Made by a program: the position numbers and the translations under genes. A stretch of DNA of 35,286 nt, from positions 1 through 35,286 of the forward strand of contig JAOPWM010000148.1 of assembly GCA_025965695.1 (NCBI GenBank), written 5' to 3'. The notes under the pieces are model-generated. The model made no database searches, was not told the DNA's origin, and saw only the letters and a program-made list of their open reading frames with translations. How positions within the stretch are numbered: the stretch's first letter is position 1; each line of letters opens with the position of its first letter. Source of the DNA: Blastococcus sp. (GTDB taxonomy: Bacteria > Actinomycetota > Actinomycetes > Mycobacteriales > Geodermatophilaceae). Below are positions 1,912 to 35,286 of the stretch, in pieces.

Positions 1912-2654
1912 CAGGTTGTCCCTTCTGTGCCCGGCAGCGGCCAGGAGACCGCCAGCCCGCGGCAGGTGATGGTGAGTGCGGTGGTGACGACGTCCTCGAG
2001 CGGCACCCGCTTGGGGTTCCACCACTCGGGCGCGGAGTTCAGTGCGCCGATGACGAGGAGCTGGGCGGCGTGCAGGTCGACGTCCGGGTCGATCTCACCG
2101 CGCGCCCGGGCCTCCTCGAACAAGCTGCGCCAGAGGATGCCGTAACGGGCCTGGGCCGCGACCAGCCGCTTACGCATCTCGTCCGGCATCTGGCCGATGT
2201 TGCGCACCGCGGCCGTCGCGTAGTCCGACAACTGCAGCACCGCGCGGAGGTGCGCCTCCACCGCGGCACAGATCTTGGTCATGGCGGACGCGCCGGCCGG
2301 GAGCTGCGCGAGGGCCGCCTCGACGTGCCCCTGCGCGCGCTCCTGGCCGCGCCGGATGACTTCCTCGATGAGCTCGTCACGCGACGCGTAGTAGTAGTAG
2401 ATGGCCGGCGCCTGGACCCCGGCGACGTCGGCGATCTCGGCCAGTCGGGTCCCCGCGTAGCCCTTGCGGCTGAGCACCTCGGCCGCGGCGTCGAGCACCC
2501 TCTCCCGGGTGCGGGCCGCCTTGGTGTCCGGCACCCCCGCGCCGATGGTCCCCGCGCCGATGGTCACCGCGTCGTCGGGCACGGCAGCAGTGTCGGACAC
2601 CGCGGCGGCGTCCGAAACCGCGGCCGGCCGGCGGGCCCGCGGGGGAGAGGTCAT
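1911..2654 (-). CDS. TetR-family transcriptional regulator
   Basis: A 247-residue TetR-type repressor. The DNA-binding domain spans roughly residues 45-95 (ARTRERVLDAAAEVLSRKGY, then AEIADVAGVQAPAIYYYYAS as the helix-turn-helix). The C-terminal domain (KICAAVEAHLRAVLQLSDYA onward) would bind a small ligand, perhaps a CoA ester. About 45 extra N-terminal residues are Ala/Val/Asp-rich and come from tandem DNA repeats, so the true start could lie further in. ATG 2654 is chosen because it overlaps the monooxygenase stop by one base (TGATG), although no strong ribosome site precedes it. The gene sits between an enzyme gene upstream and a hydratase gene downstream, so it probably controls its own operon through the palindrome at 4626-4642. 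Confidence 0.9.
   Translation of the reverse strand: MTSPPRARRPAAVSDAAAVSDTAAVPDDAVTIGAGTIGAGVPDTKAARTRERVLDAAAEVLSRKGYAGTRLAEIADVAGVQAPAIYYYYASRDELIEEVIRRGQERAQGHVEAALAQLPAGASAMTKICAAVEAHLRAVLQLSDYATAAVRNIGQMPDEMRKRLVAAQARYGILWRSLFEEARARGEIDPDVDLHAAQLLVIGALNSAPEWWNPKRVPLEDVVTTALTITCRGLAVSWPLPGTEGTT
2536..2565. repeat. 15-base tandem duplication in the TetR gene N-terminal region
   Basis: CCCGCGCCGATGGTC occurs twice back to back (2536-2550 and 2551-2565). A second, imperfect repeat of about 18 bases follows at roughly 2588-2625 (TCGGACACCGCGGCG and TCCGAAACCGCGGCC). Both lie in the 5' part of the TetR gene and encode the repeated TIGAG and AVSD segments, which look like unstructured protein. 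Confidence 0.8.
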
Positions 2655-7072: not shown

Positions 7073-8229
7073 GAGACGTGGCCATGGTCGGCGCGGGGAT
7101 GATCCCGTTCGGCGAGCTGTTCGACCAGAGCATCAAGGACATGGTCAGCGGGGCCTTCGCCGCGACGCTGGCGTCTGTCGACAAGGGCATGCCCGTCGGT
7201 GACATCCAGGCGGCCTGGTTCGGCGAGGTCCAGAGCGTCGACGGCTTCCCGGCCGGACTGCTGGCCGACACCTGCGGCCTCCTGGACATCCCGGTGACCC
7301 GAGTGGAGAACGCCTGCGCCACGGGCAACGACGCCATCCGCAACGCGCTCTACGCCGTCGGCGGCGGGTACGTGGACGTGGCCCTCGTCGTCGGCACGGA
7401 CAAGGTGCGCGACACCTCGGCCGCCTCCACGTTCTGGGACTGGATGTCGACCAACCGGGACATGGCGTGGGACCTCCCGCTCGGCCTCATCTCACCGGCG
7501 AGCTTCGCGCTGCACGTGGCCCGCTACATGCACGAGTTCGGCGCGACCCGGGAGCACCTCGCCCGCGTGGTCGTGAAGAACCACCGCAACGGCGCCCGCA
7601 ACCCCTACGCCCACCTCCGGTTCGAGGTGTCGATGGAACAGGTGCTGAACGCGCCCCCCGTGGTGGAGCCGTTCGGCCTCCTGGACTGCGTGCCGCAGAG
7701 CGACGGCGCGGCCGGCGTCCTGCTGGTCAGCCGGGACGTCGTGGACCGCTACACCGACAAGCCGGTGTGGGTCCGCGGCGTGGGCACTGGGATGGACCGG
7801 ATCATGCATGCCCACAAGACCGATCTGTCGTCGTTCGCCGCCACCCGCAAGGCGGCGAAGCAGGCCTTCGCGATGGCCGGGATCGGGCCGCAGGACATCG
7901 ACGTCGCTGAGGTGCACGACTGCTTCTCGGGCGTGGAGATGATGACCTACGAGGACCTCGGGTTCTGCGACCGCGGGGAAGCGCCGCGCCTCCTGGAGAA
8001 GGAGGAGACGTCGATCGGCGGCCGCATCCCGGTCAACCCGAGCGGCGGGCTGAAGTCGAAGGGACACCCGCCGGGTGCCACCGGCGTGGCCCAGTGCACC
8101 GAACTGTTCGAGCAGTTGCGCGGCGACGCGGTCAACCAGGTCGACGGGGCGCGCTGGGCGCTGGCACACAACGTCGGCGGTCCCACCGCCGTTTCCGCCA
8201 TCACGATCCTGGAGGGCCCCCGTGGCTGA
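7069..8229 (+). CDS. thiolase of the lipid-transfer (SCP-x/Ltp) type
   Basis: A 386-residue thiolase-superfamily enzyme that would cleave or form carbon-carbon bonds in acyl-CoA substrates. Catalytic residues are in place: Cys83 in VENACATG, His283 and Cys285 in VHDCFSG, and His333 in SKGHPPGATG, with NVGGP near the C-terminus. The HDCF motif marks the SCP-x/Ltp branch, including the aldolases and thiolases that shorten sterol side chains together with a DUF35 partner. Here the DUF35 protein is the overlapping upstream gene (ATGA), which strongly suggests a thiolase-DUF35 complex. Whether it acts as a thiolase or as a CoA-free retro-aldolase, as Ltp2 does, cannot be decided from the sequence. 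Confidence 0.92.
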   Translation: MRDVAMVGAGMIPFGELFDQSIKDMVSGAFAATLASVDKGMPVGDIQAAWFGEVQSVDGFPAGLLADTCGLLDIPVTRVENACATGNDAIRNALYAVGGGYVDVALVVGTDKVRDTSAASTFWDWMSTNRDMAWDLPLGLISPASFALHVARYMHEFGATREHLARVVVKNHRNGARNPYAHLRFEVSMEQVLNAPPVVEPFGLLDCVPQSDGAAGVLLVSRDVVDRYTDKPVWVRGVGTGMDRIMHAHKTDLSSFAATRKAAKQAFAMAGIGPQDIDVAEVHDCFSGVEMMTYEDLGFCDRGEAPRLLEKEETSIGGRIPVNPSGGLKSKGHPPGATGVAQCTELFEQLRGDAVNQVDGARWALAHNVGGPTAVSAITILEGPRG

Positions 8230-8977
8230 TCTGTCGGGCAAGGCCGCCGTCGTCACCGGCGCGGCACAGGGCATCGGCCGCGCGGTCGCAGAGGCGTTCG
8301 CCGCCGCAGGCGCCGGCGTCGTGCTCGTCGACGTCGACGAGGCGGGTGTCACGGCTGCCGCAGCGGCCCTGGCCGACGCCGGTTACCCGGCGGTCGGCGT
8401 GGCCGGCGACGTCGGCGACGAACAGACGATCGCCCGTGCGGCCGACAGCGCCCGCGGTGCTCTGGGCGAGCTTGCGATCTGGGTCAACAACGCCGGGGTC
8501 AGCCGCCCGGCGATGCTGCACAAGATGGGGGTGGACCAGTTCGACCTCGTCCTCAGGGTGCACGCCCGGGGCACGTTCCTGGGCACCCGGGAGGCGGCAC
8601 GGCGCATGCGGGAGGCCGGAAGCGGGGGCTCGATCATCAACGTGACCTCGTCGGCCGGACTCGCCGGGACGATCGGTCAGATCAACTACGCGGCGGCCAA
8701 GGGTGCGATCACGGCCATGACCAAGTCGGCGGCCAAGGAACTGGGCCGGTACGGCATCCGGGTCAACGCCGTCTCCCCGGCCGCGGCGACCCAGATGACC
8801 GAGACGATCCGCAGTGACGAGCGGTTCGCCGAGCAGTACCTCGAGCGCATCCCGCTGCATCGTTGGGCGGAGCCCGACGAGATCGCCGGCGCGTTCCTCT
8901 ACCTGGCCGGTCCGGCCGCCGACTACGTCACCGGTCAGGTGCTCTGCATCGACGGTGGCAGCTACATGGCCAGCTGA
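8222..8977 (+). CDS. short-chain dehydrogenase/reductase
   Basis: A 251-residue classical SDR, probably oxidising a secondary alcohol or a 3-hydroxyacyl-CoA with NAD(P). TGAAQGIG at residues 12-19 binds the cofactor, NNAG follows, the catalytic Ser lies in NVTSSAG, and the Tyr/Lys pair is in NYAAAK. Asp at the end of the second strand (VLVDVDEAG) favours NAD over NADP. GTG 8222 overlaps the thiolase stop by 8 bases, so it is translated with that operon. The context suggests it makes the 3-keto substrate for the thiolase upstream. Confidence 0.92.
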   Translation: MADLSGKAAVVTGAAQGIGRAVAEAFAAAGAGVVLVDVDEAGVTAAAAALADAGYPAVGVAGDVGDEQTIARAADSARGALGELAIWVNNAGVSRPAMLHKMGVDQFDLVLRVHARGTFLGTREAARRMREAGSGGSIINVTSSAGLAGTIGQINYAAAKGAITAMTKSAAKELGRYGIRVNAVSPAAATQMTETIRSDERFAEQYLERIPLHRWAEPDEIAGAFLYLAGPAADYVTGQVLCIDGGSYMAS

Positions 8978-10353: not shown

Positions 10354-11118
10354 ATGCTCTCCGCAGGGACACCCGAGGCGCGCAACGGTGGCACGGCGAC
10401 CGCCGAGCCCGTGCTGCGCGTGGACGGCCTCACGGCCGGCTACGGCAAGCACGTCGTCCTGGACGGCGTCGCCCTGGTCGTCGGCGAGGGCGAGCTGGTC
10501 GCGCTCCTCGGCCACAACGGCGCCGGCAAGACGACGGCCCTGCGGTCGATCGTCGGCCAGGTCCGCCCCAAGGCCGGCAGCATCCACCTCGACGGCGCGG
10601 CCGTGACGGGCATGTCCCCGGCGGTCACCGCGAAGCGGGGGATGAGCATGGTCCCGCAGGGCCAGGGCGTCTTCCCCTCCATGACCGTCGAGGAGAACCT
10701 CCGGCTCGCCGCCGCGGTCGCGACCCGCCGGAGCTCGAACCCGCGCCCCCAGGACGAGGTGCGCGCCTTCGTCCTCGACATGTTCGGCATCCTCAAGCGA
10801 CGCCACAAGGACAAGGCCGGCTCGTTCAGCGGCGGTCAGCGGCAGATGCTCGCGATCGGCATGGCACTCATGACCCAGCCGCGGCTGATGCTCCTCGACG
10901 AGCCGTCCACGGGGCTGGCCCCCGTCCTGGTCGACGAGGTGCTCGCGGCGGTCCGGAAGGTCAACCAGGAACTCGGGACGAGCGTCCTCCTGGTCGAGCA
11001 GGACACCAAGCGAGTCCTCGCCGTGTCCGACCGGGTCTACGTCATCAAGCTCGGGGTGCCCGTCTTCGACGGCACGCCCGCAGAAATGCACCAGCAGGAC
11101 TGGTCCCAGCTCTTCTGA
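10354..11118 (+). CDS. livF: ABC transporter ATP-binding protein, LivF type
   Basis: A 254-residue ATPase of the branched-chain amino acid (HAAT) transporter group. Walker A is GHNGAGKT at residues 53-60, the signature is SFSGGQRQ, and Walker B is LMLLDEPSTGLAP followed by VLLVEQD. It energises import through the membrane subunits encoded just downstream. The start ATG 10354 has only a weak upstream ribosome site; about 19 N-terminal residues precede the conserved fold, so a later start is possible. LivF-type systems near CoA ligases and dehydrogenases in actinobacteria often import hydrophobic carboxylic acids rather than amino acids; that is inference here. Confidence 0.93.
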   Translation: MLSAGTPEARNGGTATAEPVLRVDGLTAGYGKHVVLDGVALVVGEGELVALLGHNGAGKTTALRSIVGQVRPKAGSIHLDGAAVTGMSPAVTAKRGMSMVPQGQGVFPSMTVEENLRLAAAVATRRSSNPRPQDEVRAFVLDMFGILKRRHKDKAGSFSGGQRQMLAIGMALMTQPRLMLLDEPSTGLAPVLVDEVLAAVRKVNQELGTSVLLVEQDTKRVLAVSDRVYVIKLGVPVFDGTPAEMHQQDWSQLF

Positions 11119-12503: not shown

Positions 12504-13385
12504 ATGGACCTGCTCCTCTCGCTCGCGAAGAACGGGGTGATCATCGGCCTGCTGTACGGACTCTTCGCGTACGGCATGAGCCTGATCATCGCGACGTCGG
12601 GAGTGCTGCACTTCGCGCACGGGCTGACGCTCGTCGGCTCCGCCTACTCGTTCTGGTTCTTCTTCCAGGAGAAGGAACTGGGTGTGTTCGTCGGCGTCCT
12701 CGCCGCGCTCGCAGTCGGTGGCCTGATCGGCGTCCTCGTGGAACTGGTGATCTACCGGCCACTGCGGCGCATCCACGCCACCGACATGGTCTTCCTGGTG
12801 GCGTCCCTGTCGGTGCTGACCCTGGGGCAGGCCGCCATCGTCTTCATCTTCGGCACCGACCCCAAGTCCGTGCGGCCGAACGAATTCCTCCGCTGGAGCG
12901 CCGACGTCGGGCCGTTCAACATCCGCACCTGGGACCTGCTCATCCTCGGCGCGAGCGCCCTGGCCTTCGCGGCGCTCTACCTGCTGCAGCGGCGCACCGC
13001 GGTCGGCCTGTCGTTCCGCGCCGTCGGTGACAATCCCCAGCGCGCAGAGACCCTCGGCATCAAGCTGCAGCACACCTACGTGTGGGTCTTCCTGGCCGGC
13101 TCCCTCGTGGCGGTCCTGCCGGCCATGCTCCTGGCGGTCCAGAACCCCGTCACGCCGTCCATGGGCTTCGACCTGCTCGTCAAGGCCGTCATCGCCCTCG
13201 TCATCGGTGGTATCGGCAGCATGCCGGGGGCCCTGCTCGGCGGCATCCTCATCGGCCTGGTCGAGAGCCTGGCCACCTACAAGCTGCCGACGGAGTGGGC
13301 GGAATTCACCCTCTACGCGCTGCTCTTCATCTTCGTCATCGTCCGGCCGAACGGTCTGACGAAGGGCGCGTTGCGCACAGCGTGA
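12504..13385 (+). CDS. livH: ABC transporter permease, LivH type
   Basis: A 293-residue membrane protein of the branched-chain amino acid permease family, with about eight hydrophobic segments. Family landmarks are GLLYGLFAYGMSLIIATSGVLHFAHG at the N-terminal side (residues about 15-40), GLSFRAVGDNPQRAETLGI in the cytoplasmic loop that meets the ATPase, and ALVIGGIGSMPGALLGGILIGLVE. The start ATG 12504 follows GAAGGA at a 10-base spacing. It forms the channel with the LivM part of the next gene product. The importer genes are arranged F-J-H-MG, and all four functions appear present. Confidence 0.94.
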   Translation: MDLLLSLAKNGVIIGLLYGLFAYGMSLIIATSGVLHFAHGLTLVGSAYSFWFFFQEKELGVFVGVLAALAVGGLIGVLVELVIYRPLRRIHATDMVFLVASLSVLTLGQAAIVFIFGTDPKSVRPNEFLRWSADVGPFNIRTWDLLILGASALAFAALYLLQRRTAVGLSFRAVGDNPQRAETLGIKLQHTYVWVFLAGSLVAVLPAMLLAVQNPVTPSMGFDLLVKAVIALVIGGIGSMPGALLGGILIGLVESLATYKLPTEWAEFTLYALLFIFVIVRPNGLTKGALRTA

Positions 13386-24341: not shown

Positions 24342-24363
24342 ACGGTCGGGCGCTTCAGCGCCC
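24332..24363. terminator. two tandem hairpins between convergent genes
   Basis: CCGACC (24332-24337) pairs with GGTCGG (24344-24349), and GGGCGC (24348-24353) pairs with GCGCCC (24358-24363). They overlap by two bases and enclose both stop codons of the convergent PaaK-like and enoyl-CoA hydratase genes. They probably end transcripts from both sides, though no T-runs are present. Confidence 0.5.
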
Positions 24364-25140
24364 CTGCCAGCGCGGGGTGCGCCGCTCGGCGAAGGCGGAG
24401 GCGCCCTCGCGGGCGTCGTCGGAGGCGAAGACCGGCTCGGTGTAGGCCGCCTGGCGGGCGAAGAGCTCCGCCTCCGGCCACTCCGCGGAGTCGAGCGCGA
24501 GCGCCTTCGCGGTGGCGACCGCCAGTGGCGCGTTCACCGCGACGGTGGCGGCGAGCTCCTTCGCGGCGCTCAGGGCCTCGCCGTCGGGGACCACCCGGTT
24601 GACCAGACCGTGCGCGGCCGCGCGGCCGGCCGTCAGCGGCTCGCCGGTGAGCAGGACCTCGAGCGCGATCGCGCGCGGCAGCCGGCGGGGGAGCCGCACG
24701 GCGCCGCCGGCCCGGGCGATGAGCCCACGCCGAGCCTCGGGCAGGCCGAACCGCGCGCCGTCGGCGGCGACCACGAGGTCGCAGGCCAGGACGAGCTCGA
24801 ACCCGCCGCCGAGCGCCCAGCCCTCGACCGCCGCGATCAGCGGCTTGCGCGGCGGTGCCTCCACCAGCCCGCCGAAACCGCGGCCCGGGACGTGGGCCTG
24901 CTCGCCGGCGAGGAACCGCTTGAGGTCCATGCCGGCGCAGAACGTGCCGCCCGTGCCGGTGAGCACGCCGACGGCCAGCTCGGGGCGCTCGTCGAGCTCG
25001 GTCAGTGCCGCGGCGATCGCCTCCGCCACGGAGCGCGTGACCGCGTTCCGCTGCTCCGGCCGGTTGATCGCGATCGTCAGGACGCCGCCGTCGGCCTCGA
25101 CCAGAACGTCGTCGGCGCCGGTGACCGGGACGTCACTCAC
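24355..25140 (-). CDS. enoyl-CoA hydratase, crotonase family
   Basis: A 261-residue crotonase-fold enzyme with an intact hydratase active site: the oxyanion-hole segment TFCAGMDLKRF near residues 67-76, GGGFE with Glu115, and FGLPE with Glu135. Both acidic residues needed to add water to an enoyl-CoA are therefore present. GTG 25140 overlaps the stop of the upstream SDR gene by four bases. With that SDR and the acyl-CoA dehydrogenase before it, it makes a beta-oxidation set: desaturation, hydration, oxidation. It is the last gene of the minus-strand transcript. Confidence 0.93.
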   Translation of the reverse strand: MSDVPVTGADDVLVEADGGVLTIAINRPEQRNAVTRSVAEAIAAALTELDERPELAVGVLTGTGGTFCAGMDLKRFLAGEQAHVPGRGFGGLVEAPPRKPLIAAVEGWALGGGFELVLACDLVVAADGARFGLPEARRGLIARAGGAVRLPRRLPRAIALEVLLTGEPLTAGRAAAHGLVNRVVPDGEALSAAKELAATVAVNAPLAVATAKALALDSAEWPEAELFARQAAYTEPVFASDDAREGASAFAERRTPRWQGR

Positions 25141-25904
25141 CGGGGCGCCATCCGGATGCCGCCGTCCAGCCGGATCGTCTCCGCGTTGACGTAGGGGTTC
25201 TGCAGGAGGCTCAGCGCGAGGTGCGCGTAGTCCTCGGGGGCGCCCAGTCGGCGGGGGTGCGGCACGCTCGCGGCCAGTCCCTCCCGGATGTCCTCGCGCA
25301 GCCGCGCCAGCATCGGGGTGTCGAAGATGCCGGGGGCGATGGTGTTCACCCGGATCTGGGCCGCCGCCAGGTCGCGCGCCGCCACCAGGGTCATGCCGTG
25401 CACCCCGGCCTTGGACGCGGTGTAGGACGTCTGCCCGATCTGGCCGTCGAAGGCGGCGACGGACGCGGTCATGACGACGGCACCCCTGTCGCCGTCGAGG
25501 GGCTCGTTGCGCACCATGCGCGCCGCGGCCAGGCGCAGGACGTTGTACGTGCCGACGAGGTTGATCCGGAGGACCTCCTCGAAGCTGGCGAGCGGGCTGG
25601 GCTCGCCGTCCTTGCCGAGGATCCGGAGCCGGTCGCCGCCGCGGCCGGCGCAGTGGACGACCGCGCGCAGGGGGCCGCGCTCGGTCGCCGCGTCCATGGC
25701 CGCGCCGAGGGTGAGCTCGTCGGTGATGTCGGCGGGGACGAAGCGGGTGCCGCCGCCGAGCGCCGCGGCCACCTCCTCGCCGGCAGAGGTGGGCAGGTCG
25801 GTGATGGTCACCTGTGCGCCGGCGGCGACCAGTGCGCGGGCGGTCGCCTCGCCCAGCCCGGAGGCGCCACCGGTGACCAGGGCGGAGATGTCGAACAGCT
25901 GCAT
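25137..25904 (-). CDS. short-chain dehydrogenase, 3-hydroxyacyl-CoA dehydrogenase type 2 (HSD10)-like
   Basis: A 255-residue SDR. TGGASGLG at residues 10-17 binds the nucleotide and Asp in ITDLPTSAG favours NAD. Catalytic Ser lies in MTASVAAFDG and Tyr/Lys in SYTASKAG. The insertion between strands (RGGDRLRILGKDGEPSPLASFEEVLRINLVGTYNVLR) and QIGQTSYTASK are typical of the HSD10 group, which oxidises 3-hydroxyacyl-CoAs, branched ones included, and some hydroxysteroids. ATG 25904 follows GAGGAG. It lies 55 bases after the acyl-CoA dehydrogenase gene and overlaps the hydratase gene. Confidence 0.93.
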   Translation of the reverse strand: MQLFDISALVTGGASGLGEATARALVAAGAQVTITDLPTSAGEEVAAALGGGTRFVPADITDELTLGAAMDAATERGPLRAVVHCAGRGGDRLRILGKDGEPSPLASFEEVLRINLVGTYNVLRLAAARMVRNEPLDGDRGAVVMTASVAAFDGQIGQTSYTASKAGVHGMTLVAARDLAAAQIRVNTIAPGIFDTPMLARLREDIREGLAASVPHPRRLGAPEDYAHLALSLLQNPYVNAETIRLDGGIRMAPR

Positions 25905-25959: not shown

Positions 25960-27132
25960 TCAGCGGGAGCGCGGCGCCTTCGCGCGGCCGGCCAGTGACC
26001 GGCCGATGATCTCCTTCATGATCTCGGTGGTTCCGCCGACGATCGTCTGGACGCGGCCGTCGATGTAGGCCCGGGAGATCGGGTACTCCTCCATGTAGCC
26101 GTAGCCGCCGTGCAGCTGCAGACAGGCGTCGACCACGCGCTTCTGCAGCTCGGTGGCCCACCACTTGCACTTCGCGCCCTGCACGGCGTCGAGCCCCCCG
26201 GCGTTGTACCGGAGCACCTGCTGCTCGAGGTAGGCCCGGGTGACCTCGACCTCGGTGACCAGCTCGGCCAGCCGGAAGCGGCTGTTCTGGTAGTCGAGCA
26301 CCGGCCGGCCGAACGCCTCCCGGCCGGCCGTGTAGTCCAGGGTCCAGTCCAGCGCTGCCTCGGCGGCGGCGAGCGCGCGCCAGCCGACGGAGAGGCGTTC
26401 CAGCGGCAACTGGTCGGTCAGGTGGAAGAAGCCACGGCCCTCGAGGCCGACGAGGTTCGTGGCGGGCACCCGGACGTCGTCGAAGAAGAGTTCCGCGGTG
26501 TCCTGGGCGTGCAGGCCGATCTTGCGCAGCTTCTGGCCGCGGGTGAACCCGGGTGTGCCGGACTCCACGAGCAGGAGCGAGAACTCCGGCCGCTCGGGCA
26601 GGCCGCCCGTGCGGCAGACGACCACGACCAGGTCGGCGGTGTAGCCGTTGGTGATGAAGGTCTTCGCGCCGTTGATGACCCAGCTGTCGCCGTCCCGGGT
26701 GGCGGTGGTGCTGATGCCCCGCAGGTTGCTGCCGACGCCGGGCTCCGACATGGCCATGGAGGTGACGATCTCGCCGGCCGCCATGCGGGGGAGCCAGGCC
26801 TGTTGCTGCTCCGGCGTGCCCAGGACGGCCAGGTACGAACCGACGATGTCCTCGTTGATGCCGAACCCGGAGGCGAAGGCGGCCGCGCCCACGCGGGCGA
26901 ACTCCTCGGCCACCACGCAGCGGTACCGGTAGTCGGTCCGGCCGCCGCCGCCGAGCTCCTCGGGCACCCGGATGCCGAGCACACCCTGGCGCCCGGCCGC
27001 CTGCCACGCGCTGCGATCGACCAGCCGCTGCTCGTCCCATCGGGACTGATGGGGGACCACCTCCCGCGTCACGAACTCGCGGACGACGCCGCGGAACTCC
27101 TCGTGCCGGGGGCCGTAGAACGGCTCGAGCAT
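25960..27132 (-). CDS. acyl-CoA dehydrogenase
   Basis: A full-length 390-residue acyl-CoA dehydrogenase: helical N-terminal domain (FYGPRHEEFRGVVREFV), beta domain with MSEPGVGSNLRGISTTA and WVINGAKTFITNG, and C-terminal helices (REAFGRPVLDYQNSRFRLAEL, then LQLHGGYGYMEEYPISRAY and VGGTTEIMKEIIGRSL). The motif GGTTEIM lacks the Glu of medium-chain enzymes, as in long-chain and isovaleryl types, whose base comes from a middle helix. ATG 27132 follows GGGAGGA; the open frame continues far upstream, but that part is a shadow of the next gene. It begins the desaturation-oxidation-hydration set on this strand and probably has its own promoter at 27163-27204. Confidence 0.93.
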   Translation of the reverse strand: MLEPFYGPRHEEFRGVVREFVTREVVPHQSRWDEQRLVDRSAWQAAGRQGVLGIRVPEELGGGGRTDYRYRCVVAEEFARVGAAAFASGFGINEDIVGSYLAVLGTPEQQQAWLPRMAAGEIVTSMAMSEPGVGSNLRGISTTATRDGDSWVINGAKTFITNGYTADLVVVVCRTGGLPERPEFSLLLVESGTPGFTRGQKLRKIGLHAQDTAELFFDDVRVPATNLVGLEGRGFFHLTDQLPLERLSVGWRALAAAEAALDWTLDYTAGREAFGRPVLDYQNSRFRLAELVTEVEVTRAYLEQQVLRYNAGGLDAVQGAKCKWWATELQKRVVDACLQLHGGYGYMEEYPISRAYIDGRVQTIVGGTTEIMKEIIGRSLAGRAKAPRSR

Positions 27133-27162
27133 GCGTCCTCCCACGTGGTCCGGGTCCATCCG

Positions 27163-27221: not shown

Positions 27222-28238
27222 TCAGAGAACTCGGACGACCCGCTCGCCGTCGACGAGGCGGATGCCGGCGAAGGACGCCTTCCCGAGCGAACGGCTGAAG
27301 TGGCTCACGGCGATGAGCCAGACGGCGACGATGCGCTCGGGCGGGGCGCCCGCGAACCGGCTGACGTCGTCCCACACCGGGCGTGACTCGGTCTGCCAGG
27401 TCCCGAGCCCGGCGGTCCCGGAGCGGACGGCGACATGGGTCTCCCGGTCCCGCCACGACGGTGCCGGGCAGTGAAAGCCGGAGTTCTCGGGCAGCCCGGC
27501 GCTCCAGAACCACGTGAGGTCCCGGCCGTCGCCGAACTCGACGGCGACGCTCAGGTAGTCGTGGGACCACATGGTGTCCTCGCGCTCTGCCGACGGGAGG
27601 GCGTCCACGCGCCACGACCACTCGAGCACGGTCGACGGTGTCAGGGGCGCTCGGACCGGCGTGGTCAGGATGCCGATGTCGTCGTCGCAGACGACGTCGA
27701 TGGCCGGTGCACCGGCCGCCCGCCCGGCGCGGAAGATGTCGGTCTCGCCGAAGTCGAGCAGGTACGACCAACCCGGCGGCAAGGTCACCGGGGTGCCGAG
27801 ACGCCGCCTCTCCGCCCGGGCGAGCGCGGGGTCGACGTCGTCCAGGGTGGGCAGCCCGTCGACGGCGCACAGTCCCGGCGGCCACGCCACGACGGTCACG
27901 TCCAGCCCGCCCGATCCCTTGGCGTACGCCTCCGGGCCGGTGGCGAGGTGCCCGTACCGGTCGGCCCACGCGCCGCGGTAGACGCACACCTCCAGTTCGC
28001 CGTCGCGGTCGGCGACCGCCGTCGTCGTGTCCTGGGTGCAGCCGAAGGCCCGGCCGCCGCGCACCCGCGCCCAGAGGTGGAACTTCGGCCCGGCGCCGAC
28101 GTCGCGGGTCCGCGACCACCGGATGAAACCGGTGCCGAGCAGGGTGATCTCCTGGCCGGCCCGCACCCGCAGTCCGGTCGGCGTCCACGGCGGACGGTCC
28201 GCCGGCAGCGTGAGGTGGACGACCTCGGGGCGCGGCAC
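27222..28238 (-). CDS. protein of unknown function: lectin-like N-terminal and DUF3047-like C-terminal domains
   Basis: A 338-residue protein with no signal peptide or membrane segment. Residues about 5-120 look like a beta-sandwich reminiscent of PA-IL-type lectins (TGLRVRAGQEITLLGTGFIRW, DGELEVCVYRG, GGLDVTVVAW). Residues about 150-338 resemble DUF3047: VLEWSWRVDALP, then HDYLSVAVEFGD, LTWFWSAGLPENSG, IVAVWLIAVSHFSRSLGKASFAGIRLV. Both matches are from memory of pattern and are tentative. GTG 28238 lies four bases after the monooxygenase stop and has no strong ribosome site, so its translation is probably coupled. No catalytic residue can be named. Strict linkage to the monooxygenase suggests a role in the pathway: binding the hydrophobic substrate, or acting on the ester or lactone product. 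Confidence 0.8.
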   Translation of the reverse strand: MPRPEVVHLTLPADRPPWTPTGLRVRAGQEITLLGTGFIRWSRTRDVGAGPKFHLWARVRGGRAFGCTQDTTTAVADRDGELEVCVYRGAWADRYGHLATGPEAYAKGSGGLDVTVVAWPPGLCAVDGLPTLDDVDPALARAERRRLGTPVTLPPGWSYLLDFGETDIFRAGRAAGAPAIDVVCDDDIGILTTPVRAPLTPSTVLEWSWRVDALPSAEREDTMWSHDYLSVAVEFGDGRDLTWFWSAGLPENSGFHCPAPSWRDRETHVAVRSGTAGLGTWQTESRPVWDDVSRFAGAPPERIVAVWLIAVSHFSRSLGKASFAGIRLVDGERVVRVL

Positions 28239-28242
28239 GGGG

Positions 28243-30168
28243 CTACCCCGCGGCCGGCTCGACGGAGAAGTCGGCGAGGTCGGGGCGGCGGGTCATGTGC
28301 CAGTAGTCGACGACCCGCCAGGGCATGTTGGTGACGACCCGGCCCGCTGCGTTGCGGTAGTAGGTCTCCATCCCCGGATGGGTCCACACCATCCCCGCGT
28401 GGGCCTCGTCGAGCCGGCGGTTGTACTCCTCGTGCACCTCCGGCCGGCAGTCGACCGCGCCGGCGTCGCTGTCGATCACCTGGCTGAGCAGGTCGACGAT
28501 GTACCGCACCTGGCACTCGGCGATGAAGATGTAGCTGCCGCCGACGGGATTGGTGTTCGGGCCGTAGGTGAAGAACAGATTGGGGAAGCCCGGCATGCTG
28601 ATGCCGAGGTGGGCCGTCGCGTCGTCGGCACCCCAGAGCTCGCGCAGCGACCGGCCGTCGCGCCCGGTGATCTGCATGGGGTGCAGCAGCCGCTGGGCGT
28701 CGAAGCCCGTGCAGAGGACGACGACGTCGACCTCGTACTCCGCCCCCGAGGCGGTGCGCACCGCCGTCTCGGTGAACCCGGTGACGGCGTCGGTGACGAG
28801 CTCCACCTCCGGTCGCACGAGCGCCTCGAACCAGCCGGCGTCCAGGAGGATCCGCTTGCCGTAGGGCGGATAGGTGGGCCGGCACTTCTCCTGCAGGTCC
28901 GGCCGGTCGGCCAGGTGCCGCTCCATGTAGCGCAGGAAGGACTTCCGGTAGGCCTCGTTGATCGCGTTGAGCGAGCGCTCGGGGTGGGGCCACTCGGGAT
29001 CGATCTGCAGCGAGGGGTGGTGCTTGTCGTTGAAGGTCCAGGCGCCCCGGAACCGGTACCAGCGCTGGTAGAACGGCACGGCGGCCATCAGCCAGTTCAC
29101 CTCGTCGGGGACCCGGCGCGTGTAGTTGGTGCTGGGCACGACCCACTGCGGTGAGCGCTGGAACACGGTGATCGCCGCGGCGGTTCCGGCGATGGTCGGC
29201 ACGATCTGCATGGCGCTCGCGCCGGTGCCCACGATCGCCACACGCTTGCCCGTGAGGTCGAGGTCCTCCGGCCAGCGCGCCGAGTGGAAGAGCGGACCGC
29301 GGAAGTCGTCCATGCCCGTCAGGTTCGGCACCTTCGGCCGGCTGAGGAGTCCCACCGCGGTGACGACGGCGCGGGCGTGCAGCCGGTAGGTGGCGCCGTT
29401 CCCCTCGCGGACGACCGCCGTCCACTCCTGCTCCGCCTCGTCGTAGGAGAGGCTCTCCACCTCCGAGCCGAAGCGGATGGATGGCAGTAGGTCGAAGTGG
29501 CCGGCGACGTCGCGCAGGTACTGCGCCATCTCGCCGCGCTTGCCGAAGTAGGTCGACCACGTGTGCGGGAAGAAGGACAGCGAGTACAGGTGACTGGGGG
29601 TGTCGGTACCGGCCCCGGGGTAGCGGTTCTCCAGCCACGTGCCGCCGACGTCGTCGTTCTTCTCCACGACGACGAACGGGATCCCGCGTTCCCTGAGCTC
29701 CTTGGCGGTGGCGAGCCCCGAGACGCCGGCACCGACGATGAGCACGGGGAACCGCTCGGCCTTCTCCGGCGCGGGAGGACGGGCGCGGTCGCGGGGTGCG
29801 AAGCCCATCTCGGCGATCATCATCGTGGCGTACTCCGGCGGCACCGGCTCGCCCATGCAGACGCTCATCATCGTCTGCAGCAGTTCCTCGTCCGGGCTCT
29901 CCACGGCGACCGGCTTGCCCCGCGACCAGTCGGTGATCGCCTCGGCGGCGGCGGTGCGGATCTCCTCCTGGACGGCGTCGGGCAGTCCGCCGTCCGCGTG
30001 CTCGCTGAGTCCGGGCGTCCGGGTGGGCCGGTAGGGCTCCTGCAACCAGCGCTCCTCGCCGGTGAGGTGGAACAGGACCATGAGGAGGGTCGGCAGGTTC
30101 GCCGCCGCCAGTGCCCGCGCGAGCTGCTGCTGGTCCAGGTCGCCCCGCGGGGTCGCCGGTTCGAGCAT
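28243..30168 (-). CDS. flavin-dependent Baeyer-Villiger-type monooxygenase, HAPMO-like (copy 2)
   Basis: A 641-residue paralogue of the protein encoded at 2654-4591, colinear along its whole length. It has the same N-terminal helical extension (residues 1-135, with AAANLPTLLMVLFHLTGEERW), GAGVSG at 146-151, the fingerprint FRGPLFHSARWP at 289-300, and VAIVGTGASAMQIVP for NADPH. ATG 30168 follows GGAGGC. The partners differ from copy 1: here an acyl-CoA ligase gene precedes it by 31 bases and the two-domain unknown follows it. Both copies keep every motif, so both should be active, perhaps on successive or different ketones of one pathway. Confidence 0.92.
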   Translation of the reverse strand: MLEPATPRGDLDQQQLARALAAANLPTLLMVLFHLTGEERWLQEPYRPTRTPGLSEHADGGLPDAVQEEIRTAAAEAITDWSRGKPVAVESPDEELLQTMMSVCMGEPVPPEYATMMIAEMGFAPRDRARPPAPEKAERFPVLIVGAGVSGLATAKELRERGIPFVVVEKNDDVGGTWLENRYPGAGTDTPSHLYSLSFFPHTWSTYFGKRGEMAQYLRDVAGHFDLLPSIRFGSEVESLSYDEAEQEWTAVVREGNGATYRLHARAVVTAVGLLSRPKVPNLTGMDDFRGPLFHSARWPEDLDLTGKRVAIVGTGASAMQIVPTIAGTAAAITVFQRSPQWVVPSTNYTRRVPDEVNWLMAAVPFYQRWYRFRGAWTFNDKHHPSLQIDPEWPHPERSLNAINEAYRKSFLRYMERHLADRPDLQEKCRPTYPPYGKRILLDAGWFEALVRPEVELVTDAVTGFTETAVRTASGAEYEVDVVVLCTGFDAQRLLHPMQITGRDGRSLRELWGADDATAHLGISMPGFPNLFFTYGPNTNPVGGSYIFIAECQVRYIVDLLSQVIDSDAGAVDCRPEVHEEYNRRLDEAHAGMVWTHPGMETYYRNAAGRVVTNMPWRVVDYWHMTRRPDLADFSVEPAAG

Positions 30169-30199: not shown

Positions 30200-31858
30200 T
30201 CAGGCGGGGACGTCGCCGGCGAGCCGCTCGGCGGCCCGGCGCGCCAGCTGGTGGCGCTCGATCTTCCCGGTGCTGGTCATCGGGAAGTCGTCGACGAACT
30301 GGATGTGGCGGGGGACCTTGTAGTCGGCGAGTGTGCGCCGGCAGGCGGCGATCACCTCCTCCGTGGACGGCGCGGCCCCGTCGGCCGGCTGGATGAACGC
30401 GTAGCCCACCTCGCCGAGCCGCTCGTGCGGAGCCCCGACGACGACGGCCTGACGGACGCCCGGGATGGCCTCGAGCTGCTTCTCGATCTCGGCCGGGTAG
30501 GCGTTGGTGCCGCCGACGATGAACATGTCCTTCAGCCGGCCGACGATCTTCAGGTAGCCGTCCTCGTCGAACACGCCCAGGTCACCGGTGCGGAACCAGC
30601 CCTCGGGGGTGATCGCGGCCGCCGTGGCCTCGGGGTCGCGGTAGTAGCCCTGCATGACCAGGTGGCCTCGCACCCGCACCTCGCCGGTCTCGCCGGTGGC
30701 GCGCGGCCGGCCGGTCTCGGGGTCGACCACCGCGACCTCGAACTCGCCGATCGGCAGGCCCTTGTTCTCGCAGACGACCTCGATCGGGTCGTCGTACCGG
30801 CACATCGTCGTCGACGACGTCGTCTCGGTCATGCCGTAGACGGCAAGGAGCGCGTCGAGCTGCAGCACGTCCTTGGCCCGGCGGGCGACGGCCGGGGTGA
30901 CGCTCGCGCCGCCGATCCACGCGCTCTTGAGGCACGACGTGTCGCGCGGCCGGCGGGTCAGGGACTCCGCCAGGTCGATGAAGTGGGTGGGGATCCCGCC
31001 GAAGATGGTCACCCGCTCCTCGGCGACGAGGTCGGCGGCCGCATCGGGCTCCCACTGCGGCATCGCGTAGTAGGTGCCGCCGACCAGGAGGGCGGGCACG
31101 AAGGCCGTGCAGAACCCGGCGATGTGGTACAGCGGCATGTGGCCGAGGACCCGGTCGCCGTCCTCGATGTGCATGGATCGGGCGATGTTGCGGACGTTCT
31201 CGACGAGGACGTGGGAGTGCATGGCGCCCTTGGGTGCGCCGGTGGTGCCGGAGGTGTAGACGACGAGCGTGGTGTCGTCGGTGGTCACCGCCTCTTCCGC
31301 CGCGCGGACGGCCGCCGCGTCGAGCGGTTCGGCGAGCAGGTCGTCGAGCGGGGTGGTGCCGGGCAGGGGGCCGGACGTGGCCGCGGCGATGACGTTGCGG
31401 AGGTCGGGCAGGGCGTCGCTGCGCAGGTCACCCGGGAGGTTGGAGCCCAGCTCCGGGGCCATGTCGCAGGCGGCGCCGTAGAAGTCGATGTTCCACCGGC
31501 GGTCGGTCATCACCAGGACCGTGGCGCGCGACCGGCGCAGCACATCGGCGGCCTCGCGGGGCTTGTAGCGCGTGTTGAGCGGCACGAGCACCGCGCCGAT
31601 GCGGAACGCCGCGAGGGCGACCAGCAGCCACTCGGTCGAGTTGGGCAGCCACAGCGCGATCGGGTCCCCGCGCCGGATCCCGCGGGCCAGCAGCGCCCCG
31701 GCCAGGACATCGACCCGCTCGTCGGTCTCGGCGAAGGTCAGCCGGCGGTCACCGTCGACGATGAACGTGCGGTCGGGCCACTGCCGGGCGGCAGCGCGAA
31801 GGAGGCCGCCGAGCGTGTCGGCGGCCTCTTCGGTGGTGACGGTGTCGACCGGTGACAT
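30200..31858 (-). CDS. acyl-CoA ligase (AMP-forming)
   Basis: A 552-residue ANL-superfamily ligase. VVYTSGTTGAPKGAMHSH is the AMP loop, VYGMTET the A5 motif, EGWFRTGDLG the A7 motif, GRLKDMFIVGGTNAYPAEIE the hinge, and the catalytic Lys lies in TSTGKIERHQ. It makes an acyl-CoA from a free acid. ATG 31858 follows GGGAGGT; a much longer open frame continues upstream, but that is the shadow of the TetR gene. It is the first gene of the second monooxygenase operon and sits behind a 20-base palindrome (31933-31952). It is distinct from the ligase at 17705-19285, implying a different acid or step. Confidence 0.93.
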   Translation of the reverse strand: MSPVDTVTTEEAADTLGGLLRAAARQWPDRTFIVDGDRRLTFAETDERVDVLAGALLARGIRRGDPIALWLPNSTEWLLVALAAFRIGAVLVPLNTRYKPREAADVLRRSRATVLVMTDRRWNIDFYGAACDMAPELGSNLPGDLRSDALPDLRNVIAAATSGPLPGTTPLDDLLAEPLDAAAVRAAEEAVTTDDTTLVVYTSGTTGAPKGAMHSHVLVENVRNIARSMHIEDGDRVLGHMPLYHIAGFCTAFVPALLVGGTYYAMPQWEPDAAADLVAEERVTIFGGIPTHFIDLAESLTRRPRDTSCLKSAWIGGASVTPAVARRAKDVLQLDALLAVYGMTETTSSTTMCRYDDPIEVVCENKGLPIGEFEVAVVDPETGRPRATGETGEVRVRGHLVMQGYYRDPEATAAAITPEGWFRTGDLGVFDEDGYLKIVGRLKDMFIVGGTNAYPAEIEKQLEAIPGVRQAVVVGAPHERLGEVGYAFIQPADGAAPSTEEVIAACRRTLADYKVPRHIQFVDDFPMTSTGKIERHQLARRAAERLAGDVPA

Positions 31859-31932
31859 GCAGACCTCCCGCAGGTGCGGCAGCGTGGCCGCGCTGTGCGA
31901 ATCGGCGCCCGGGGAGGCGCCCCGCATCGCAA

Positions 31933-31952
31933 CATACCGTCTGGTCGGTATG
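31933..31952. promoter_or_regulatory. palindrome upstream of the ligase-monooxygenase operon, probable TetR operator
   Basis: CATACCGTCTGGTCGGTATG has perfect 7-base arms (CATACCG/CGGTATG) around TCTGGT. Sites of the form ATACCG-n-CGGTAT are typical of TetR dimers. It lies 74 bases before the ligase ATG and just beyond the end of a TetR gene. A related half-conserved site is at 32717-32737. Confidence 0.75.
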
Positions 31953-31976
31953 CCCGGAAAGAGATGTCCAGGAGGG

Positions 31977-32582
31977 CTACCGGAGTACGACGCCGTCGAG
32001 CACGACCGAGGCGTACATCCGGCCGATCTCCCGCGGCGGCATGCCGCTGGGGCGGTACCAGTGGTACGCCCAGGCGGCCATACCGATGATCCCGAAGGCG
32101 AGAACCTGCGCGGACGGGACCTCGCGGAAGTCACCTCGGGCGATCCCGTTCTCGATCGTCTGGACCACCCGTCGCTCGTACTCGTCCCGCTTCGCGCGGA
32201 CCTGCTCGAAGGGTTCCTCCGACAAGCTGCGGCGCTGCTCGAAGAAGATGACGTACTCCCGCTGGAACTCCGCCGCCGAGACGACGATCTCCTCGATGAG
32301 GAGGGTGAGCGCCTCCCGGGGTGGGAGGTCGCCCGCGATGCCCGCCTCGAGCGCCTGCATCTGCTGGTCCATGAACCGGTCATGGATGTGCAGGAGCAGG
32401 TCGTCCTTCTTCGTGAAGTGGTGGTAGAACGCGCCCTTCGTGACGCCGGCCCGGTCCACGACGTCCTGCACCGACGTGCCGACGTAGCCGCGCTCGTAGA
32501 AGCAGTCGATGGCTGCCTGCACGATGGCCTCGCGCGCGCCGCCCCGCCGGTCAGCCGAGCGCAGATCCGCTCTCTCCGTCAC
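31977..32582 (-). CDS. TetR-family transcriptional regulator
   Basis: A 201-residue TetR regulator. The N-terminal helix-turn-helix region is REAIVQAAIDCFYERGYVGT then VVDRAGVTKGAFYHHFTKKDDLL; the C-terminal domain (SLSEEPFEQVRAKRDEYERRVV to MAAWAYHWYRPSGMPPREIGRMY) would bind the inducer. GTG 32582 is chosen for normal family length with GGGA upstream; GTG 32621 is an alternative that adds 13 residues. It lies upstream of and parallel to the ligase-monooxygenase operon and divergent from a crotonase gene. Palindromes on both sides of the gene make it the likely repressor of both transcripts. Confidence 0.9.
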   Translation of the reverse strand: MTERADLRSADRRGGAREAIVQAAIDCFYERGYVGTSVQDVVDRAGVTKGAFYHHFTKKDDLLLHIHDRFMDQQMQALEAGIAGDLPPREALTLLIEEIVVSAAEFQREYVIFFEQRRSLSEEPFEQVRAKRDEYERRVVQTIENGIARGDFREVPSAQVLAFGIIGMAAWAYHWYRPSGMPPREIGRMYASVVLDGVVLR

Positions 32583-32716
32583 GCCGTCGTCCCGTCTCCA
32601 TGCCGTTGCAGCCCCTCTCACGTGGCAGGCCCTGGTGCTCCGCGACGATAGTCACCACCAGGTCCGGACCCTTGACGCTGACGTGGGCACAGGGCGGGGG
32701 GCTGATTCGGGACATT

Positions 32717-33539: not shown

Positions 33540-33560
33540 GCTGACGGAGCAGCCGTCAGC
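33540..33560. terminator. hairpin between convergent genes
   Basis: GCTGACGG (33540-33547) and CCGTCAGC (33553-33560) form a perfect 8-pair stem with a 5-base loop, between the crotonase stop and the membrane-protein stop. It overlaps the latter's last codons and could serve both directions; no T-run is present. Confidence 0.55.
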
Positions 33561-34692
33561 CGCTGACGAGCCGGGGGGAGCAGTCCGGCTCCGCCAGGCC
33601 GTTGGCGGCGCACCACGCCGCGGCCTCGGCGCCGGAGCCGTAGGGCTGCGCGACCAGGCTCAGCCACCAGGTGTCGTCGAGGCCGGGCGCGCCGACGTCG
33701 TCCCCACGGGCGAGGACGGTCGGGAAGCGGGCCGTCCAGTCGTGCTGGCGGAGGGCGTAGGCCGAGGCGGCGGCATCGTCGGTGACCTGTGCGGCGGCGA
33801 CCTGCGGGACCCATGACCCGCGGAGGTCGTCGAGCTCGGGAGCGTCGGCGGCGCGAACGCTGAGCAGCCCGGCCAGGTCCTGCGGCGGTGAGGTGACGAA
33901 GGCGTCGGCGTGCGTCTGCGCGCTGCTGGCGATCGCCGAACCGCCGAGGAGCAGGAGGATGACGAGCAGCCAGGCACCGATCGTCACGCCCGCGACCTCG
34001 CCGGTGCCGATGCCTGCGTCGTCGCTGTGGGGGGAGCGCCATCGGAATGCCGCAGCGGCGGCGCTGCCGAAGGCGACCACGCAGACGATGCAGACGGGGA
34101 TGAGCTCCCACAGCCGGGCATCGAGGACGTCGAAGGTGGCCCACGCCGCGCGCGCGGTCGCAGCCGTGAGGACGACGGCGGTCGCCAGGACGACGAGGTC
34201 GGGCGCCTTCAGTCCGACGGCTGCGAGCACGAGAACGGCGAGGCCGACGAGGGCGGCCGTCGTCGCCACCCAGCCCGGCCAGAACCACGGCTCGCCTCCG
34301 CCCGGCCAGGGCGCGGCGGCGTTGCGGGCGGCGTCCGCGGCGCGGGTGGCGACCTCGAACCGGAGTCGGTCGAACAGCAGGGGCGCGAGGGCCAGACCGG
34401 TGAGCAGACCGGCGGCGGTGAGCAGCGAGGCACCGGCCGGGTGGTGCGCGATCGCATGCCGGGAGCGGATCGTCGCCGGCTCGGCCGGCTGCTCGACGGC
34501 GGACTTCTGGGTGCGGGGCTGCTCGTCGCGGACTGTCTCGGGCGGTCCCTCGACGGCGGGTGTCTTCTTGCGCGATTCCTCGACGTCCTGACCCTCGTCG
34601 TCCTGCCTCTCGCCGGGCCGATCGTCGGCGTCGTCACGCTTGGCGTGGCGGCCGCGCTTCTGCGGTCCCGCGTCGGGTTCAGCCGTGGTCAC
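33556..34692 (-). CDS. membrane protein of unknown function
   Basis: I do not recognise this protein. It has about 378 residues: a charged, probably disordered cytoplasmic N-terminus of some 75 residues (KRGRHAKRDDADDRPGERQD), five hydrophobic segments (including SLLTAAGLLTGLALAPLLF, VATTAALVGLAVLVLAAVGL and TIGAWLLVILLLLGGSAIAS), and a C-terminal region of about 120 residues outside the membrane with two Cys near the end (WCAANGLAEPDC) that may form a disulfide. The start is uncertain: GTG 34692 leaves room for a divergent promoter, while ATG 34752 adds 20 residues but has no ribosome site. It has no obvious link to the catabolic genes. Confidence 0.7.
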   Translation of the reverse strand: MTTAEPDAGPQKRGRHAKRDDADDRPGERQDDEGQDVEESRKKTPAVEGPPETVRDEQPRTQKSAVEQPAEPATIRSRHAIAHHPAGASLLTAAGLLTGLALAPLLFDRLRFEVATRAADAARNAAAPWPGGGEPWFWPGWVATTAALVGLAVLVLAAVGLKAPDLVVLATAVVLTAATARAAWATFDVLDARLWELIPVCIVCVVAFGSAAAAAFRWRSPHSDDAGIGTGEVAGVTIGAWLLVILLLLGGSAIASSAQTHADAFVTSPPQDLAGLLSVRAADAPELDDLRGSWVPQVAAAQVTDDAAASAYALRQHDWTARFPTVLARGDDVGAPGLDDTWWLSLVAQPYGSGAEAAAWCAANGLAEPDCSPRLVSG

Positions 34693-34798: not shown

Positions 34799-35286
34799 AT
34801 GCGCTATCGGAAGCTGGGTCGCACCGGTCTCGACGTCTCCCCCATCTGCCTGGGCTGTATGAGCTTCGGCGGCCCGGACCGGGGGACTCACCCGTGGTCG
34901 CTGGACGAGGAGACGAGCCGACCGTTGATCCGCCGGGCGCTCGAGGCGGGGATCAACTTCTTCGACACGGCGAACGTGTACTCCGACGGGTCGAGCGAGG
35001 AGATCGTCGGTCGTGCGCTGGGCGAGTTCGCCGACCGCGACGAGGTCGTCATCGCGACCAAGGTGCACGGCGCCATGCGGCCGGGCGCGAACGGCCGCGG
35101 ACTCTCGCGCAAGGCGATCATGGCCGAGATCGACCACAGCCTGCGGCGACTGGGCACCGACTACGTCGACCTGTACCAGATCCACCGGTGGGACCGGCAC
35201 ACGCCGATCGAGGAGACGCTCGAGGCGCTGCACGACGTCGTGAAGGCGGGCAAGGCGCGCTACATCGGGGCGTCGTCGATGTTCGC
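34799..35286 (+). CDS. aldo/keto reductase, N-terminal part (cut by window end)
   Basis: The first 162 residues of an aldo/keto reductase, an NADPH-dependent TIM-barrel enzyme that reduces aldehydes and ketones. It begins MRYRKLGRTGLDVSPICLGC. The catalytic tetrad is complete: Asp56 and Tyr61 in FFDTANVYS, Lys88 in ATKVHG and His129 in YQIHRWD. ATG 34799 is the only good start; an AGGA directly abuts it, so the ribosome site is unusual. The frame is open to the end of the window and the gene continues beyond it. It is divergent from the unknown membrane protein. Confidence 0.92.
   Translation, partial: MRYRKLGRTGLDVSPICLGCMSFGGPDRGTHPWSLDEETSRPLIRRALEAGINFFDTANVYSDGSSEEIVGRALGEFADRDEVVIATKVHGAMRPGANGRGLSRKAIMAEIDHSLRRLGTDYVDLYQIHRWDRHTPIEETLEALHDVVKAGKARYIGASSMF

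Follow-up and report, generated by a model that had tools for sequence, protein, structure and literature searches.

The window, the 35,286-nucleotide stretch of Blastococcus DNA analysed here, carries at positions 27222-28238 of its minus strand a gene for a two-domain protein that joins a predicted PA-IL/LecA-like fold to a DUF3047 domain. The open reading frame (ORF) spans exactly this interval, begins with GTG and encodes 338 residues, and an in-frame stop rules out a plus-strand reading. Four bases separate its start from the stop of a preceding Baeyer-Villiger monooxygenase (BVMO) gene, as the preliminary description had stated for a 338-residue frame, the strand being the minus strand. 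Because its codon-position GC (0.71/0.58/0.94) falls inside the range of the neighbouring genes and three Pseudonocardia species carry relatives 61-63% identical to it over residues 4-338, the frame looks coding, and at the level of sequence we take it as confirmed that this is a real gene. The product is predicted to be soluble, with no signal sequence seen by eye. Its one Pfam match is DUF3047 and NCBIfam gives none; no esterase or hydrolase family of either collection and no Pfam glycosidase matches it, in keeping with the earlier view of the protein as uncharacterised, as no known enzyme family was matched. A likeness to guanylate kinase in a single-sequence PDB search (E 0.11-0.18) was taken as chance.

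The gene belongs to a minus-strand run headed by a TetR-family regulator (31977-32582; Pfam TetR_N and TetR_C_24 on the ORF 31977-32621), which is followed by an AMP-binding acyl-CoA ligase (30200-31927; Pfam AMP-binding, E 3.8e-86 on the longer ORF 30200-32383), the FMO-like BVMO (28243-30168; Pfam and PDB matches), the two-domain protein, an acyl-CoA dehydrogenase 62 bases downstream of it (25960-27159; Pfam), a short-chain dehydrogenase (SDR; 25137-25904; Pfam) and a crotonase/enoyl-CoA hydratase family protein (24355-25140; Pfam and NCBIfam). The gaps along this run are 49, 31, 4, 62, 55 and -4 bases. Steroid, cyclohexanone and phenylacetone monooxygenases are the best PDB matches of the BVMO. 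The operon neighbours had been described as CoA- or flavin-enzymes throughout, and the families found are indeed of CoA, flavin or NAD(P) type. The window had also been said to lack an α/β hydrolase, which holds for the 28 of its 33 called genes that were scanned, the others lying at 1-372, 8222-8977, 10354-11118, 12504-13385 and 34799-35284; the window does encode one 4HBT thioesterase and one isochorismatase-type hydrolase.

Elsewhere in the window lies a second BVMO gene (2654-4591), adjoined by a TetR gene and a MaoC gene; the two BVMO paralogues are about 60% identical, and both are kept in a sister species, G004, on separate contigs. A 378-residue minus-strand ORF at 33556-34692 has coding-like GC and no Pfam match, and may be a wrong-frame call.

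Predicted folds of the two domains

An AlphaFold model of the whole protein, built from nine homologues, has a mean pLDDT of 87.2 and a pTM of 0.80. Both domains are mostly β in the models and neither adopts an α/β-hydrolase fold, so that the protein, all-β and with no hydrolase family match, differs from the α/β-hydrolase esterases of BVMO pathways.

The N-terminal domain (residues 1-122; 27873-28238, minus strand) is modelled as a LecA-like β-sandwich. In Foldseek it matches LecA-type lectins (EclA 6ygq, PllA 5odu, 5ofz, LecA 2vxj, 4cp9, 1l7l) at E 1.8e-6 to 3.8e-4, the best being EclA 6ygq at E 1.8e-6, with TM scores on the lectin of 0.65-0.72, rmsd of 2.3-3.5 and identities of 12-19%. The LecA β-sandwich is thus clear at fold level in the predicted structure. 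By sequence the likeness to PA-IL appears marginal: PA-IL/LecA-type lectins make up three of the five PDB matches of a whole-protein profile (E 0.22-0.62) and three of the five of an N-domain profile (E 0.057, 0.057 and 0.24), and an unrelated yeast protein scores E 0.072 with the latter. Eleven N-domains compared with Pfam up to E 10 match six families between them, and PA-IL, which we take to be PF07828, is not one of these; the HMMER filters of this search drop most matches above E of about 0.1. The PA-IL-like N-terminus proposed in the preliminary description is therefore upheld by the fold of the predicted model, remains marginal in sequence and has no Pfam PA-IL counterpart. The domain further differs from PA-IL/LecA lectins (LecA, PllA and the EclA N-domain), with which it shares its fold, in being fused to DUF3047. 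LecA-type lectins hold calcium and galactose through a known set of ligand residues; compared with the N-domain alignment by sequence only, the calcium ligands are apparently unconserved, there being no invariant Asn/Asp pair ahead of the last strand, and the calcium/galactose site has probably been lost. Literature searches found no report of a PA-IL or galactose-binding lectin domain with a BVMO, nor of PA-IL with a wax ester synthase and an unknown domain.

The C-terminal domain (residues 150-338; 27225-27791, minus strand) matches Pfam PF11249 (DUF3047) on residues 168-326 with 85.2 bits (E 5.8e-24; profile 16-197 of 198), above the gathering cut-off of 27 bits, which bears out the DUF3047-like C-terminus proposed earlier. 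Modelled alone, it forms a jelly roll with a pLDDT of 93.6. The best 50 Foldseek matches have query TM scores of 0.32-0.54 at 7-13% identity and include the NopAA xyloglucanase domain, GH11 xylanases, Thermotoga cellulase 12A, a xyloglucan-binding carbohydrate-binding module (CBM) and doublet-microtubule proteins, whose jelly rolls are presumably of the CFA20 type. These proteins resemble the C-domain in general jelly-roll topology but differ in their low identity and in having no PDB sequence match to it, the C-domain profile finding no PDB entry at E up to 10. The modelled matches would accordingly give a fold class, a generic jelly roll, and no family assignment. DUF3047 is almost absent from the searched literature, in which we found no mention of PF11249; one paper (PMC3597751) names it, as a family of no known function within a correlation cluster from metagenome data.

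Subfamily residues and distribution

To set the two-domain proteins against the rest of DUF3047, we aligned 33 two-domain and 25 single-domain sequences to the C-domain profile. The two-domain rows exclude an empty row (L025), L103, L104 and the truncated L068, and the single-domain set comprises the 27 loci L030-L056 minus L031 and L056, which have no passing ORF; the latter are the best-scoring sequences of one phylum sample, many of them alike, and form a narrow set that under-represents DUF3047. All 25 single-domain sequences and at least 32 of the 33 two-domain ones have W207, W209, E220, D227, W245, R286 and D291, marking the single-domain proteins of Pseudomonadota as members of the same C-terminal family (PF11249). 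The two groups differ at a second set of positions, where most or all sampled single-domain proteins carry another residue than the two-domain ones: H226 (31/33) gives way to Asp in 25/25, H268 (32/33) to Met in 24/25, C257 (32/33) to Asn in 21/25, E266 (30/33) to Ala in 21/25 and D240 (28/33) to Ala in 21/25. E234 is found in 26 of the 33 two-domain sequences. Judged by eye, single-domain DUF3047 proteins mostly begin with a signal sequence, whereas most two-domain proteins have no evident one.

Parts of the conserved set are missing from five Pseudonocardia members (L060-L064). With these deviant sequences set aside, H226, D227, Y228, S230, G238, D240, W245, C257, P258, W262, E266, H268, R286 and D291 are found in 28 of 28 and E234 in 25 of 28. 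Two conserved segments are seen in the alignments, one of residues 226-246 (27501-27563, minus strand; H226, D227, Y228, S230, E234, D240, W245) and one of residues 257-268 (27435-27470, minus strand; C257, P258, W262, R265, E266, H268). Judging by strand alternation in the predicted secondary structure, Y228, S230, A232 and E234, together with E266 and H268, would sit on the non-core strand face. On these alignments the two-domain proteins appear to be a subfamily of DUF3047 marked by near-invariant residues of its own (H226, D240, C257, E266 and H268), which offer a candidate site that can be tested. Three of the deviant Pseudonocardia copies (L060, L061 and L063), each with several conserved residues lost, lie between Lsr2 and SnoaL-like genes and perhaps have a separate function.

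Whole-genome searches, in which seed genomes are counted, show the subfamily to be patchy across Actinomycetota, Pseudomonadota and Myxococcota. Matches were found in three of 146 relatives of the window genome (its own genome, one truncated congener and one weak partial match), in 11 of 62 genomes of the genus Pseudonocardia (one a fragment), in 3 of 249 of the Pseudonocardia family (all already known) and in 3 of 396 of the window's phylum. Further afield, the class that holds the Acidimicrobiia copies has 2 matching genomes of 247, both of them seeds, and the order to which G244 belongs has 5 of 7. A Myxococcota sample has 8 of 188 and Pseudomonadota 49 of 398, three of these with full-length copies and the other 46 matching only from profile position 131 on. 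The large searches scored part of each genome's first-look candidates, and misses are possible in these counts. Four plasmid records hold relatives (Methylorubrum, Komagataeibacter and, twice, Methylocystis), with transposase or integrase genes near three of the copies, one from each of these genera. In the tree, the window protein groups with Pseudonocardia and Acidimicrobiia sequences (12 rows, support 100/99).

Gene neighbourhoods of the relatives

Besides the window and the truncated congener L068, we read the surroundings of 34 further loci, which makes 36 in all, several of them cut by contig ends and stopping near the gene on one side (for example L004, L064 and L097). G206 (a 3.1-kb contig), G196 (a fragment) and G062 (a weak match) were left out; the low-GC L009 was missed by the gene caller and read from its ORFs, and the called genes run too far upstream in L005 and L008 and are too short in L059 and L064. 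Conserved adjacency to a BVMO was not found as a family trait: a BVMO directly adjoins the gene in 2 of the 36 loci, the window and L068, both of this genus. L006 has a BVMO-like gene (31% identical) 7.2 kb away, Methylorubrum extorquens L013 has an FMO domain 8.9 kb upstream, inside an aminotransferase-FMO fusion of a polyketide-like cluster, and L094 and L095 have luciferase-like monooxygenases within 1 kb. The preliminary description had held that homologues scattered with no link to monooxygenases would speak against its proposal, and this is largely the pattern observed.

Within the genus, 9 of 16 genomes carry BVMO genes at E up to 1e-100, in 12 places, and one of 15 congeners (G004) has a match to the two-domain protein. 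At five BVMO places besides the two in the window and the operon copy of G004 (G001, G002 twice, the second of G004, and G012; the comparison was made apart from those of G005, G010, G013 and G014), neither a match to the protein nor the order ligase-BVMO-dehydrogenase-SDR-crotonase was found, and dehydrogenase homologues of 29-59% identity occur in three of these five stretches.

Linkage to acyl metabolism is marginal when set against the within-locus background. Of 34 loci (all but the window and L009), 11 have an AMP-ligase or acyl-CoA dehydrogenase homologue on the strand of the gene and no more than 2 kb away, and these make up 6 of 21 clades, where random genes of the same loci, taken three or more places from the gene, lead to an expectation of 3.36 clades and reach six or more in 476 of 10,000 draws (0.048); the clades were delimited manually on the tree, and neighbours of the gene supplied the query proteins, which favours a positive result. 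We also compared near proteins (same-strand genes with gaps of up to 200 bases, omitting L068, L009, L103 and L104) with far ones (a random draw of 140 of 278 far genes), the far counts covering 25 of 161 families, so that rarer families are left uncounted there. Acyl-CoA dehydrogenases number 7 of 51 near vs 5 of 140 far proteins (Fisher p 0.017), five of the seven belonging to one clade, and AMP-binding proteins 4 of 51 vs 3 of 140 (p 0.083). A linkage through luciferase-like enzymes was rejected, as these are not enriched beside the gene (2 of 51 vs 4 of 140, p 0.66).

The clearest recurrent arrangement comes from five genomes of one order, in which an acyl-CoA dehydrogenase gene lies upstream and a wax ester synthase/DGAT (WS/DGAT) gene lies within 1.4 kb in four genomes and at 3.6 kb in L088, with an MFS gene beyond it in three genomes of that order. 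A hybrid histidine kinase gene on the opposite strand directly adjoins the gene in L067, L089, L090 and L091, all of one order. In M. extorquens AM1 the gene stands between a run of KS, AT, AMP-ligase and thioesterase genes and a Rieske-P450, and we read the ligase as FAAL-like by its C-domain. This PKS-like cluster (L013 24-14994), the Rieske-P450 fusion included, lies on the AM1 megaplasmid, and the PLSDB table has no feature there. An identification of the locus as the toblerol cluster found no support in the literature searched, including the portion consulted of PMC8969499, which has no bearing on the protein. Other copies adjoin Lsr2, SnoaL, nucleotidyl transferase, HAD, MscS, HNH, TatC and transglutaminase-like genes, and further ones have GNAT and MMPL genes or CoA transferases as neighbours, or no gene that could be recognised.

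Candidate roles for the protein

The sister species G004 offers a natural test of which of the two domains the operon requires. It keeps the operon, the other genes being 76-84% identical in protein, and its copy of the gene (L068 3271-3714) is an ORF of 147 residues that starts three bases after the BVMO stop and in which residues 1 to about 131 are joined in frame to roughly the final 15, with the DUF3047 core missing. The deletion is seen in one draft genome, where an assembly fault is possible; taken at face value, it suggests that a close relative carrying this operon can do without the DUF3047 core. G004 also has proline in place of H54, a residue common to all nine sequences of the alignment. 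Between the two species the N-domain has a dN/dS of 0.36 (Nei-Gojobori) and the other operon genes 0.19-0.31, which indicates that the N-domain is constrained, though less than its neighbours. Most of this divergence may predate the deletion, so that the ratio is not proof that the shortened protein works.

In our leading interpretation, which we put a little short of an even chance, the protein is an all-β and probably cofactor-free accessory to acyl-thioester pathways, with a binding or tailoring role. The LecA-like β-sandwich would serve as a recognition or scaffold module, and H226-D227-Y228, D240, C257, E266-x-H268 and usually E234, whose conservation is observed, would form one site on the DUF3047 jelly roll, binding an acyl or polyketide-like substrate and possibly tailoring it by hydration, isomerisation, hydrolysis or cyclisation. 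In this genome the soluble protein would have been recruited into the ligase-BVMO-β-oxidation operon, where it may improve or divert the pathway; since the operon persists in the sister species without the DUF3047 core, it is not expected to be an obligatory step. In its favour we count the DUF3047 match, the confident models, the LecA-like fold, the subfamily residues, the coupling to the BVMO at four bases here and three in G004, the acyl-enzyme neighbours, the M. extorquens AM1 cluster and the in-frame loss of the core in G004; against it stand the marginal linkage, the many other neighbours, the five deviant Pseudonocardia members, the narrowness of the single-domain set and the single draft genome behind the G004 deletion. 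The suggestion in the preliminary description that the protein binds the hydrophobic substrate comes close to this reading and is possible on our data.

A purely binding or chaperone module with no catalysis, acting on a carbohydrate, lipid or inclusion surface, is possible but less probable. Its likelihood overlaps with that of the accessory reading, because the latter leaves catalysis open. Both halves resemble binding folds (LecA lectins on one side, the xyloglucan-binding CBM and microtubule-associated jelly rolls on the other), the gene lies near WS/DGAT genes in one order, and the core is apparently dispensable in G004; however, the strictly conserved set of polar His, Asp, Glu and Cys residues goes, in our judgement, beyond what would be expected of a CBM-like module.

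Less likely again is that the gene is an unrelated passenger moved by horizontal transfer, its place in the operon being uninformative on function. Such a history would suit the patchy spread (3/146 relatives, 11/62 in the genus Pseudonocardia, 3/396 in the phylum), the plasmid copies with transposase or integrase genes nearby, a context linkage barely above background and the decay of the gene in G004, but it fits poorly with the 3-4-base coupling to the BVMO in two species, with an N-domain that is constrained, if less so than the other operon genes, and with the recurrent acyl-CoA dehydrogenase and WS/DGAT arrangement in one order.

The least probable reading, over which the accessory role is clearly favoured, is the one raised in the preliminary description, that the protein acts on the ester or lactone product as the missing hydrolase that opens the BVMO product before β-oxidation: the position between BVMO and acyl-CoA dehydrogenase, the conserved His, Asp, Glu and Cys residues, the lack of an α/β hydrolase among the scanned window genes and the glycoside hydrolases among the closest C-domain folds speak for it, but BVMO adjacency is limited to one genus, no esterase family or α/β-hydrolase fold is matched, the xylanase and cellulase scores are those of a generic jelly roll, and an obligatory lactone-hydrolysis step is argued against by G004, where an in-frame deletion has removed the DUF3047 core and the operon is retained.

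Returning to the accessory reading, its boldest extension, which we consider rather unlikely, would make the LecA-like/DUF3047 proteins an undescribed class of cofactor-free all-β enzymes. Their jelly-roll cleft, lined by H226-D227-Y228, E234, D240, C257 and E266-x-H268, would tailor products that ligases and monooxygenases make from acyl-CoA or polyketide precursors, serving a catabolic operon here and a cluster of biosynthetic type in M. extorquens. Should the subfamily prove catalytic, it would represent a new enzyme class of acyl metabolism. Fsa2 and MycB are two-domain, all-β, cofactor-free cyclases of fungal polyketide pathways, and the present protein would be like them in plan only, with two β domains, no cofactor and acyl or polyketide substrates, a lead drawn from architecture and not from homology.
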